From contig JAFQWY010000284.1 in NCBI GenBank assembly GCA_017407225.1, forward strand, positions 1-36,281: a stretch of DNA of 36,281 bases, read 5' to 3'. The notes under the pieces were generated by a model that was not told where the DNA came from, did not search any database, and saw only the letters and a list, made by a program, of their open reading frames with translations. Each line of letters starts with the position of its first letter. Position 1 is the first letter of the stretch. Source of the stretch: Clostridia bacterium. Lineage in GTDB: Bacteria > Bacillota > Clostridia > Oscillospirales > CAG-272. The translations under genes were made by a program, and so were the position numbers. Positions 22,997 through 25,753 of the stretch are shown piece by piece.

Positions 22997-23025
22997 TTGA
23001 CAAGTTCGGAGTGTGGTGCTATAAT
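22997..23025 (+). promoter_or_regulatory. Consensus promoter of the metNIQ operon
   Basis: TTGACA (22997-23002) and TATAAT (23020-23025) are both perfect and 17 bp apart. Transcription should start near 23032, leaving a leader of about 210 nt before metN. So strong a promoter suggests control happens afterwards, in the leader. Confidence 0.9.
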
Positions 23026-23071
23026 ACCTTTATACAATAATTTCTGACTATTTCAAACAAGTGAGGCCGTT

Positions 23072-23152
23072 ATGACTTACAGAACAAGAGAAGCCCTCGC
23101 ATGCGAGGTATATCGAATGTTCGCCGCCCGGATTTTCCGTCGGGCGTTTTAA
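23072..23152 (+). CDS. Possible 26-residue leader peptide before metN
   Basis: An ATG with GAGG 5 nt upstream opens a 26-codon frame (MTYRTREALACEVYRMF, then AARIFRRAF) ending in TAA. Six of the 26 residues are arginine, with AGA, CGA and CGG among the codons; only two are methionine. It covers the P1-P3 junction of the leader exactly, so a translating ribosome would disrupt that structure. It may be a true leader peptide or a chance frame in a structured RNA. It is unlikely to have a stand-alone function. Confidence 0.35.
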   Translation: MTYRTREALACEVYRMFAARIFRRAF

Positions 23153-23183
23153 GTCACGCTGTTGTCACTTTTGTGCAGAGGAA

Positions 23184-23225
23184 AGTCCGGATCATTCATG
23201 AAGATGAGGGTTCCGGGCTATTTTT
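23184..23225 (+). terminator. Intrinsic terminator (attenuator) in the metNIQ leader
   Basis: AGTCCGGA (23184-23191) pairs with TCCGGGCT (23212-23219), with one G-T pair, and TCAT/ATGA pair inside. ATTTTT follows at 23220-23225. It ends 4 nt before the metN ribosome site (GGAGG, 23230-23234), the classic place for a conditional terminator. Confidence 0.75.
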
Positions 23226-23241
23226 GTGTGGAGGTATCATT

Positions 23242-24234
23242 TTGATCGAGCTGTGTCATGTAACCAAGACCTTCCAGACCGACCACGCCTCCGTGGAAGC
23301 GGTGCGGGATGTGTCCCTGACCATTGAAAAGGGCGACATTTTCGGCATCATCGGTCTCTCGGGCGCCGGCAAATCCACGCTGGTGCGGTGCATCAATTTT
23401 CTGGAAGTTCCCACGTCCGGTGAAGTGAAATTCAAGGGAACGTCCCTGTCTTCCCTCTCCAAGAAGGAGCTGCTGGAAACCCGCCGTTCCATTTCCATGA
23501 TCTTTCAGGGCTTCAACCTGCTTTCCCAACGTACCGCGCTGAAGAATGTGTGCTATCCCATGGAGATCGCCGGGGTTCCCAAGAAGGAGGCAGTCGCGAA
23601 AGCGAAGGAACTGCTTGAAATCGTAGGTCTGGGCGACCGGATGAACAACTATCCCGCTCAGCTGTCCGGCGGTCAGAAGCAGAGAGTGGCAATTGCCCGC
23701 GCCCTCGCCATGAATCCCGAGGTTCTGCTGTGCGACGAAGCCACTTCCGCCCTCGACCCCAACACCACCCGTGCCATTCTGGATCTTCTGGCGGAGATCA
23801 ACAAAACCATGGGCGTCACCATCATCGTCATCACCCATGAAATGAAGGTTGTGGAACAGATCTGCAACAAGGTAGCGGTTCTGGATCGCGGCTCCGTTGC
23901 GGAAACCGGTTATGTGAAGGATATCTTCATGGCACCCCAGTCCGCCGTTGCAAGGGATCTGATTCTTCCCAAGGGATCGGAAGCCATGTCGGCTCCGGAA
24001 GGCAGGATCATCCGTCTGGTCTTCAACGGAAGCCAGTCCGATGAGCCCATCATTTCCGGTCTGTCCATTGAATGCCGTACGGCTGTCAGCATCCAGGCAG
24101 CGGACACCAAGCTGATCGGAGACAAGATGTACGGACAGATGCTTCTCAGACTCCCCGAGGACGAAGGCTCCGTTCAGCGGATCTACAATTATCTCGGCAC
24201 CCGAGGCATTACGTTTGAGGAGGTGAAGGTATAA
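23242..24234 (+). CDS. metN: Methionine ABC transporter, ATP-binding protein MetN
   Basis: This 330-residue ATPase drives methionine uptake through MetI. Walker A is GLSGAGKST (38-46), the signature LSGGQ is at 141-145 and Walker B is VLLCDEATSA (161-170). The C-terminal 80 residues (about 250-330) match the NIL regulatory domain, which in E. coli binds methionine and inhibits transport when the cell is full. I start at TTG 23242: GGAGG lies 7 nt upstream and the protein then begins MIELCHVTKTF as MetN proteins do. An ATG much further upstream is in frame but lies in the leader RNA and has no family match. The stop overlaps the metI start (TAATG). Confidence 0.93.
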   Translation: MIELCHVTKTFQTDHASVEAVRDVSLTIEKGDIFGIIGLSGAGKSTLVRCINFLEVPTSGEVKFKGTSLSSLSKKELLETRRSISMIFQGFNLLSQRTALKNVCYPMEIAGVPKKEAVAKAKELLEIVGLGDRMNNYPAQLSGGQKQRVAIARALAMNPEVLLCDEATSALDPNTTRAILDLLAEINKTMGVTIIVITHEMKVVEQICNKVAVLDRGSVAETGYVKDIFMAPQSAVARDLILPKGSEAMSAPEGRIIRLVFNGSQSDEPIISGLSIECRTAVSIQAADTKLIGDKMYGQMLLRLPEDEGSVQRIYNYLGTRGITFEEVKV

Positions 24235-24920
24235 TGGAATTCCTTCAGACCCTTTTCGGGAACGGCAATCTGGCCATGTACGGTGAGGCGATTCTGGATA
24301 CCCTGAAGATTACCCTCGTCAGCACCCTTCTCGCCTACCTCATCGGCATTCCTCTGGGCGTTCTGCTCTACGTCACCTCCAAGGACAGCATCATGCCCAA
24401 TCCCCATGTGAACACCGTTGTGGGATATGTGGTCAACATCATCCGCTCCGTGCCGTTCATGATCGCACTGGTCATGCTCCAGCCTCTGGCGAAGATCACC
24501 GTAGGCTCCATGATCGGCGACAATGCCTTCATCTTCTATCTGGTGATCGCATCCGGTCCCTTCATCGCACGTATGGTGGAATCTTCCCTCAAGGAAGTGG
24601 ATCTGGGCGTCATCGAGGCGGCTCAGTCCATGGGCTCCGGCAACTGGCAGATCATCTGGAAGGTTCTTCTCCCCGAAGCAAAGCCTTCCCTGATCACCGG
24701 CAGTGCCATCGCCATCACCACCATTCTCGGCTACACCCCCATGGCTCAGCTGGTCGCAGGCGGCGGTCTGGGTCAGCTGGCAATCCAGTACGGTCTGTAC
24801 CGGTACGACAAACCCATCATGTATATCTCATCCCTGCTTCTGATTCTCCTTGTCCAGATCTTCCAGGAAGTTCTCAGCCGACTGGCAAGACACTCCGACA
24901 AGCGGATCCGCGGCAAATGA
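24234..24920 (+). CDS. metI: Methionine ABC transporter, permease MetI
   Basis: This 228-residue inner-membrane permease has about five helices. The coupling loop that docks on MetN has the EAA-type motif EAAQSMGSGNWQIIWKVLLPEA, and the N-terminus IRSVPFMIALVMLQP and ILGYTPMAQLVAGGGLG are typical of MetI. Two copies form the channel with two MetN and one MetQ. It overlaps the metN stop by one base, so the two are made in step. Length is normal. Confidence 0.93.
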   Translation: MEFLQTLFGNGNLAMYGEAILDTLKITLVSTLLAYLIGIPLGVLLYVTSKDSIMPNPHVNTVVGYVVNIIRSVPFMIALVMLQPLAKITVGSMIGDNAFIFYLVIASGPFIARMVESSLKEVDLGVIEAAQSMGSGNWQIIWKVLLPEAKPSLITGSAIAITTILGYTPMAQLVAGGGLGQLAIQYGLYRYDKPIMYISSLLLILLVQIFQEVLSRLARHSDKRIRGK

Positions 24921-24952
24921 TATATAAAATAATTCTGAAAAGGAGCAAAATC

Positions 24953-25753
24953 ATGAAGAAAATTCTCGCTCTCGTTCTTGCGGCAGTTCTCTGCACCTTC
25001 GCGTTCGTTTCCTGCGGCGCGTCCGACGACAAGACCATCACCGTAGCGGCAAGCTCCACTCCCCATGCGGAAATCCTGGAGCAGTGCAAGCCCATCCTTG
25101 CCGAAAAGGGCTACACCCTTGACATCAAGGTAATGTCCGACTACATCACTCCCAACACCGCTACCGACAGCGGCGACGTGGATGCCAACTACTTCCAGCA
25201 TCAGCCCTACCTGGATTCCTTCAATGCGGAAAAGGGTACCAAGCTGAGCACCGTTGTCAAGGTTCACTACGAACCCCTCGGCATCTACGCAGGCACCTCT
25301 TCCTCTCTCGATCTGGCTGACGGCGCGGTTGTTATCATCCCCAACGACCCCACCAACGGTGCACGCGCTCTCCTTCTTCTGGAAGCAAACGGTCTGATTG
25401 AACTGAAGGACGGCGTTGGCGTAAACGCTACCGTAAAGGACATCACCTCCAATCCCAAGAACCTTGACATCCGTGAAATGGAAGCTGCTCTGATCCCCGG
25501 CGTGCTCTCCGAAGCTGCCATCGGCGTAATCAACGGCAACTATGCAATCGGTGCAGGTCTGAAGGTTGCTGACTCCCTGGCACAGGAAGAAGCTGACTCC
25601 GAAGCTGCTCAGACCTATGCGAACATCCTCGTTGTCAAGGAAGGTCACGAAGACGATGAAAAGATCAAGGCTCTGGCCGACGCTCTTCTCACCGACGCAA
25701 TCCGCGACTACATCAACAACTCCTACGAAGGCGCGGTTGTTCCGATCTTCTGA
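24953..25753 (+). CDS. metQ: Methionine-binding lipoprotein MetQ
   Basis: This 266-residue surface lipoprotein has the signal MKKILALVLAAVLCTFAFVS followed by the lipid-bearing C21. The NlpA/MetQ domain follows: ITVAASSTPHAEILEQ, then DVDANYFQHQPYLD, which is highly typical and lines the methionine pocket, then HYEPLGIYAG and IPNDPTNGARALLLLE. It captures methionine outside and hands it to MetI. AAAAGGAG lies before the ATG at 24953; a frame extending upstream into metI is not used. A perfect terminator follows 30 nt after the stop. Its codons look highly biased, suggesting strong expression. Confidence 0.95.
   Translation: MKKILALVLAAVLCTFAFVSCGASDDKTITVAASSTPHAEILEQCKPILAEKGYTLDIKVMSDYITPNTATDSGDVDANYFQHQPYLDSFNAEKGTKLSTVVKVHYEPLGIYAGTSSSLDLADGAVVIIPNDPTNGARALLLLEANGLIELKDGVGVNATVKDITSNPKNLDIREMEAALIPGVLSEAAIGVINGNYAIGAGLKVADSLAQEEADSEAAQTYANILVVKEGHEDDEKIKALADALLTDAIRDYINNSYEGAVVPIF

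Follow-up and report, generated by a model that had tools for sequence, protein, structure and literature searches.

The metNIQ leader of a Clostridia bacterium is probably a translated attenuator with an invariant CGA-AUG codon pair

Comparative sequence analysis indicates that the metNIQ leader on a 36,281-nt contig from a Clostridia bacterium (the whole contig is called the window below) is probably an attenuator with a translated leader open reading frame (ORF) rather than a riboswitch. Homologous leaders were found in relatives, in most of which the ORF is under coding selection; an invariant CGA-AUG codon pair lies at a fixed spacing from the RNA switch, and the antiterminator covaries. 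With moderate confidence we take the leader to be a ribosome-controlled transcription attenuator, most likely sensing Met-tRNA at CGA-AUG.

Organisation of the leader

The leader and the genes which follow it comprise these features.

22997 to 23025, + strand: sigma-70-type promoter TTGACA-17-TATAAT (TTGACA 22997-23002, TATAAT 23020-23025, TG ahead of the -10 box)
23060 to 23066, + strand: Shine-Dalgarno-like AGTGAGG, 5 nt 5' of the ATG of the leader ORF
23072 to 23152, + strand: leader ORF encoding MTYRTREALACEVYRMFAARIFRRAF and ending in a stop codon; homologous leader ORFs in relatives
23073-23079 with 23150-23156, + strand: P1, TGACTTA/TAAGTCA, 7/7 pairs, joining the start region of the ORF to the segment 3' of P3
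23095 to 23108, + strand: P2 hairpin CCTCGCATGCGAGG, inconsistent in relatives
23114 to 23119, + strand: CGA-AUG (Arg-Met) pair, the proposed stall site
23125-23131 with 23140-23146, + strand: P3 hairpin with a CGCCCG/CGGGCG core, competing with the antiterminator
23128 to 23138, + strand: antiterminator 5' arm CCGGATTTTCC
23180 to 23190, + strand: antiterminator 3' arm GGAAAGTCCGG, overlapping the terminator 5' arm
23184 to 23225, + strand: intrinsic terminator
23242 to 24234, + strand: metN, TTG start, GGAGG at 23230-23234
24234 to 24920, + strand: metI
24917 to 25753, + strand: metQ, given as the longest frame; the real start may be slightly downstream

The promoter boxes match the consensus at 12/12 positions with a spacer of 17 and, like the three stems, the terminator and the complementarity between GCCCGGA and TCCGGGC, they were found where the original prediction had placed them. 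That prediction had missed the short ORF with its ribosome site (23072-23152), the stop codon of which lies directly 3' of P3. The best NCBIfam models for the downstream genes are metN (E 5e-100), metI (E 6e-55) and metQ (E 3e-51), all three under the curated cut-offs. The fold of the leader is moderately more stable than those of shuffled sequences (z -2.1, 6/200 shuffles as good).

The leader had been described as having neither an S-box nor a T-box core, and the Rfam 15 covariance models bore this out, giving no gathering-score match in the window and thus none to a known riboswitch or T-box. Between 22950 and 23300 there were two Rfam matches at E up to 10, both far under their cut-offs, and at 13 related loci two tRNAs were the only matches at gathering score. 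SAM-I riboswitches are present in 21/25 genomes of the genus; that of the window's own genome (L134, G000:C124:9077-9164) precedes metK.

Homologous leaders before metN

When 59 genomes were searched with DNA, 45 contained at least one match within an E limit of 1, and four clear matches outside the window's genome (E 2e-5 or better) are homologous leaders. MetN was found at E up to 1e-60 in 10/25 genomes of the genus, nine of the ten having a homologous leader before metN. Five of these leaders, including the window's, are of the window type, and four (L041, L042, L044 and L045) have an ORF such as MKNYFELLVRNNFRCGRMFSTRMILVGYSCRACSSC. The motif CGAATGTN6CCCGG gave 16 matches in the genus, nine of them before metN, and its backward control gave one. 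The seven other matches (L051, L054, L056, L058, L059, L061 and L062) showed no such leader by eye, and L006, L011, L012 and L023 were dismissed on reading as chance matches. The metN leader of L043 has lost the core of the ORF and kept the terminator, ie it is a natural deletion.

Across the family, MetN was found at E up to 1e-80 in 61/246 genomes; 30 of the loci were taken up, and the 28 new ones among these were all examined. Seven have leaders of the NFRCGRM type, named after their peptide, in three genera beyond the window's own (g188, g201 and g9); one of the seven, L067, reads NFKSGRM. Ten in other genera (L069, L072, L073, L074, L075, L080, L081, L082, L084 and L086) have Met-rich leader ORFs; in nine of them the internal Met codons were counted and number 4 to 9, and several of the ten share CHA or CHV near the end. 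These are probable classical Met attenuators. A further ten loci (L070, L077, L078, L079, L083, L085, L087, L088, L089 and L090) have neither kind of leader in the ~330 nt upstream; a leader further upstream is possible at these, that of L071 having needed a longer stretch. The one remaining locus, L076 (g198), carries at 113-202 a leader ORF with an in-frame CGA-AUG and more Met codons, without NFRCG and without CCCGG. It is possibly an intermediate kind of leader and was included in none of the tests. A MetI similarity search of the genome contigs gave one distant locus.

CGA-AUG is in frame among the internal Met codons of L086 as it is in L076, and this, together with the Met-rich leaders of other genera, fits control by Met-tRNA. 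The ten Met-rich metN leaders would also suit a classical Met-codon attenuator and nothing more, in which CGA-AUG was kept by chance or by RNA pairing and the peptide was irrelevant. The window ORF, however, has one internal Met codon, and in most homologues the peptide is strongly conserved; we consider that explanation highly improbable.

The CGA-AUG codon pair

In an alignment of 28 leaders the six columns of CGA-AUG, codons 15-16 of the window's leader ORF, are invariant (28/28) and no other column is. The invariance is partly one of selection, since being a leader of this kind was what admitted a sequence to the set; 16 of the 28, however, 5 of the window type and 11 of the peptide type, were retrieved by their similarity in DNA or in MetN, and no codon was demanded of them. 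Where a ribosome-mediated attenuator would be expected to have regulatory Met codons, the 28 leaders have one invariant Met codon, directly after CGA. No Arg codon is rarer here than CGA, which makes up 17/583 Arg codons in 31 window ORFs, and the other Arg positions of the leader peptide are encoded by CGT, CGC, AGA, CGG, AGG and, once, CGA. Salmonella his-leader assays (PMC4046918) found translation of CGA to be slower than that of CGU and CGC, with attenuation relieved.

A Shine-Dalgarno-like box lies ahead of an in-frame start in 27/28 leaders (none was recognised in L127). Because starts were looked for in that frame alone, their in-frame position is no independent finding. L004 has an additional, out-of-frame ATG closer to its Shine-Dalgarno-like box. 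The start codon is 16 codons before CGA in 19/19 peptide-type leaders outside the family f61 and 19 codons before it in 4/4 leaders from f61, the window-type leaders having it 10 to 16 codons before. Translation of the window's leader is supported indirectly, by its ribosome site, its start and its homology.

Coding selection and the conserved peptide

A conserved peptide, MKNYFExLLRxNFRCGRM, is the product of most of the homologous leaders. Among the 11 metN leaders retrieved independently of the peptide pattern, pN is 0.272 and pS 0.734 in frame (ratio 0.37), the shifted frames giving ratios of 1.27 and 1.98; the end of the conserved peptide reads NFRCGRM in nine, NYRCGRM in one and NFKSGRM in one. 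Over 19 non-redundant leaders pN is 0.311 and pS 0.793 (ratio 0.39), with 1.28 and 1.83 in the shifted frames, which contain 7 and 12 stops. Differences at codon positions 1, 2 and 3 are 0.34, 0.18 and 0.61. The near-duplicates L093, L099, L105 and L115 were left out of the codon table and of the pN/pS values. Ratios of 0.37-0.39 are those of a translated leader ORF in these relatives. The Phe of NFRCGRM (codon -5) is TTC in 18/18 peptide-type leaders which have Phe there, possibly reflecting a constraint at the level of the bases.

The five window-type leaders have no such peptide conservation, pN being 0.562 and pS 0.565 over the last 8 codons before CGA, a stretch in which the window's two other frames are likewise free of stops. 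Judged by its sequence, the leader of the window has diverged from the peptide type: the NFRCG peptide has been lost, and CGA-AUG, its spacing and the RNA switch remain. No family in NCBIfam or Pfam matches the NFRCGRM peptide. The suggestion of a new methionine- or SAM-sensing RNA is not supported by these results, the invariant columns being the ORF codons CGA-AUG and the ORF being under purifying selection in most relatives.

Leaders before other genes

With CGA fixed, the pattern N-F/Y-R-C-G-R-M was found in 12/395 family genomes and no control match was seen; in g12 an NFRCGRM-type leader precedes metY (L098, L099). Allowing any Arg codon, the pattern matched in 4/253 genomes of the class, three true and one by chance, with 6 matches of the backward control. 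With a control of that size the pattern alone proves little and gene adjacency decides. The same pattern matched in 20/108 genomes of f61 (control 0), all in one of five genera; all 21 matches lie just before metY, but with the same 21 bases matched in every one they are little independent evidence. It matched at six places in 5/245 genomes of the order (control 2) and in 0/199 genomes of the phylum sample (control 1), the known spread lying within the class. One match, L106, was by eye a chance match within an unrelated gene.

NFRCGRM leaders precede metY at L125, L126, L127 and L128. At L129 (1470-2821) such a leader and a terminator precede an SsuA-like binding protein, and the same genome has a second copy before metY; the only NCBIfam match of the L129 substrate-binding protein is SsuA, under the cut-off. 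The CCGG switch and a terminator are present in L125, L128 and L129, and by eye there is no such terminator in L126, L127, g12 and the f61 leaders examined. In one f61 genome the ORF of the metY leader (L115, 1150-1720, minus strand) contains an in-frame tandem duplication of NFRCGRMCCSCSNS.

The leaders before metY and the SsuA-like gene were found by a pattern which required the peptide, and within that limit their recurrence there would suit a ligand-dependent arrest peptide, ie one in which the nascent NFRCGR(M), lying in the exit tunnel, would stall the ribosome on sensing a small molecule such as methionine, cysteine, SAM or a different sulfur metabolite, the stall being read by the same RNA switch. 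NFRCGRM in 9/11 of the pattern-free metN leaders, and its fixed length from the start codon, point the same way, and a stall one codon later would weaken the antiterminator, as would suit shut-off induced by a ligand. A conserved peptide beside the proposed stall codon is, however, found in the peptide-type relatives and is missing from the window type: NFRCG is absent in the window and in four relatives, all of which keep CGA-AUG, the spacing and the switch. The invariance of CGA, moreover, is a feature of a codon and not of a peptide. We regard the arrest peptide as a possible but rather doubtful explanation.

Antiterminator, terminator and stems

The window's antiterminator (23128-23138 with 23180-23190) has 11 contiguous pairs. 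In 20/20 terminator-bearing leaders CCCGG (ACCGG in L129) starts 7 nt past the AUG and pairs either in P3 or with the terminator 5' arm, and in all 20 the antiterminator and the terminator share bases. Cognate arms gave a mean antiterminator energy of -20.1 kcal/mol, as against -15.7 kcal/mol for non-cognate arms, and 0/20,000 permutations, in which the kinship of the leaders is ignored, were as stable. Among the metN peptide-type leaders alone 8/20,000 were as stable, and among the window type alone 12,011/20,000, the test being powerless there. One antiterminator pair shows compensatory change (A-U in 17 leaders, G-U in 1 and G-C in 2), and another occurs as five standard pair types and is paired in 16/20. 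L093 was left out of some of the permutation tests of the antiterminator and of P1 and P3, and L005 out of one test of P1 and P3.

The antiterminator had originally been drawn between P3 (GCCCGGA, 23126-23132) and the 3' arm of the terminator (TCCGGGC, 23212-23218). The complementarity is real; as an antiterminator the pairing failed, with 4461/20,000 permutations as good and no cognate preference. It was rejected, the pairing with the 5' arm being stronger in 20/20 leaders (19/19 without L125, where the 3' arm was misplaced) and co-varying. The stretch 23178-23190 of the window, GAGGAAAGTCCGG, is similar to a conserved RNase P RNA motif, which is accounted for by the antiterminator and terminator pairing.

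The core pairs of the antiterminator and their spacing are kept in all 20 terminator-bearing leaders, which argues against two further readings, that an RNA-binding protein has its site here or that the leader has decayed and its terminator is no more than partial. Either might be suggested by L043, which keeps its terminator without the ORF core, and by the loss of the peptide in the window type; we think both extremely unlikely.

Of the stems originally proposed, P1 and P3 have counterparts in relatives, and P2, present inconsistently, was rejected as a conserved stem. For P1-like pairing 0/20,000 permutations were as good over all leaders, and 839 and 748 of 20,000 within types. For P3 the numbers, again of 20,000, were 257 in the peptide type, 729 over all leaders and 16,013 in the window type. 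Covariation is supported for P1 overall, is weaker for P3 and is not supported for P2. A new riboswitch class, in which a P1-P2-P3 junction with a conserved CGAAUGU bound Met, SAM or something similar and the ORF was incidental, would be consistent with the lack of an Rfam match, with the cognate preference of P1 over all leaders and with the unconserved peptide of the window type. The same stretch is nevertheless under in-frame coding selection in relatives, P1 is weak within types and P2 inconsistent, and what the core conserves is two adjacent codons at a constant distance from the switch, so we judge such a class most unlikely. The leader had been put forward as an unclassified riboswitch or attenuator. 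The second term is retained, P3, the antiterminator and the terminator sharing bases and recurring in relatives, and the first is dropped.

Proposed mechanism

In the preferred model, an attenuator responding to Met-tRNA, a ribosome would translate the leader ORF and arrive at CGA-AUG. If Met-tRNA is ample the ribosome would pass, P3 (and P1) would form, the terminator would follow and transcription would end before metN. If Met-tRNA is scarce, we infer that the ribosome would wait with the slow CGA in its P site and AUG in its A site, covering the first bases of the P3 arm and so blocking P3. The remainder of the P3 arm could then pair with the terminator 5' arm before the terminator 3' arm was made, and metNIQ would be transcribed. 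In most relatives the nascent NFRCGR peptide, started 16 codons upstream, would probably aid the stall.

To mimic a ribosome that holds CGA in its P site, the RNA was masked before p+15 or p+16, where p is the first base of CGA. Under this masking the antiterminator keeps means of -14.3 and -12.3 kcal/mol and the P3 region -7.2 and -6.6 kcal/mol, respectively, and with masking before p+15 the residual antiterminator is stronger than the residual P3 region in 19/20 leaders, L125 being the exception. Without masking, the antiterminator exceeds P3 in strength in 20/20 and is itself exceeded by P3 plus terminator in 20/20. With masking before p+15 the antiterminator beats the terminator in 1/20, and since it so seldom does, readthrough would require that the antiterminator form first. 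Masking from p+17 on reduces the antiterminator to -8.5 kcal/mol and below; it is largely lost if the ribosome stops one codon later, so control could then be reversed, to termination. CGA in the P site is preferred to the later stall because conservation of the peptide ends at Met and because the importer would be expected to be on when Met is scarce.

The energies alone allow the usual attenuation logic, with the antiterminator first, and leave the direction of control unfixed. They do not by themselves favour the antiterminator over the terminator, and for that reason our confidence in the best explanation was lowered from somewhat better than even to even. Against that explanation, a classical attenuator would be expected to have more than a single internal Met codon, the NFRCG peptide is unnecessary for plain sensing of Met-tRNA, and L043 retains its terminator without the ORF. 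In a wider reading, for and against which we are evenly divided, the NFRCGRM family would be new leader peptides of sulfur amino acid genes, the stall being set by a peptidyl-tRNA that reads a rare wobble codon, CGA, in the P site while AUG occupies the A site. Within one class, several families would have such leaders, ahead of metNIQ, of metY and of a gene for a sulfonate-type importer. The window would hold a peptide sensor decaying to a bare codon-pair sensor, and in other genera Met-rich attenuators would have replaced it.

Comparison with known systems

In the titles and abstract openings of openly licensed PMC literature there was no apparent description of an RCGRM peptide or of such Met, metY or metNIQ leader peptides. 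The leader peptides of trp, his, leu and ilv are the standard cases of ribosome-mediated transcription attenuation. The present leaders resemble them in having a leader ORF, a competing hairpin and a mutually exclusive antiterminator and terminator, with the position of the ribosome deciding between these. They differ in having no run of regulatory codons, but a single invariant rare CGA followed by AUG, in the conserved peptide of most members and in preceding sulfur amino acid genes. The Met-rich leaders of other genera precede the same gene in the same position, with a leader ORF and then, by eye, a terminator-like hairpin; unlike the present family they have several internal Met codons and no NFRCGRM.

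TnaC, SpeFL and SecM are regulatory arrest peptides, the first two of which stall the ribosome on a ligand. These and the present leaders have in common a conserved nascent chain whose last codon is fixed and whose length from the start is constant, a likeness of layout only; in the present leaders a stall is proposed.

The usual leaders of Met genes in Firmicutes are the SAM-I riboswitch (RF00162) and the T-box. These too lie upstream of Met genes and have a terminator as output, but neither matches in the window, and in this genome SAM-I is found before metK. If the proposal is correct, a leader-peptide route to Met control would be added in a lineage for which textbooks give riboswitches and T-boxes, with a principle of codon-level sensing at CGA-AUG that could be tested by one synonymous base change.
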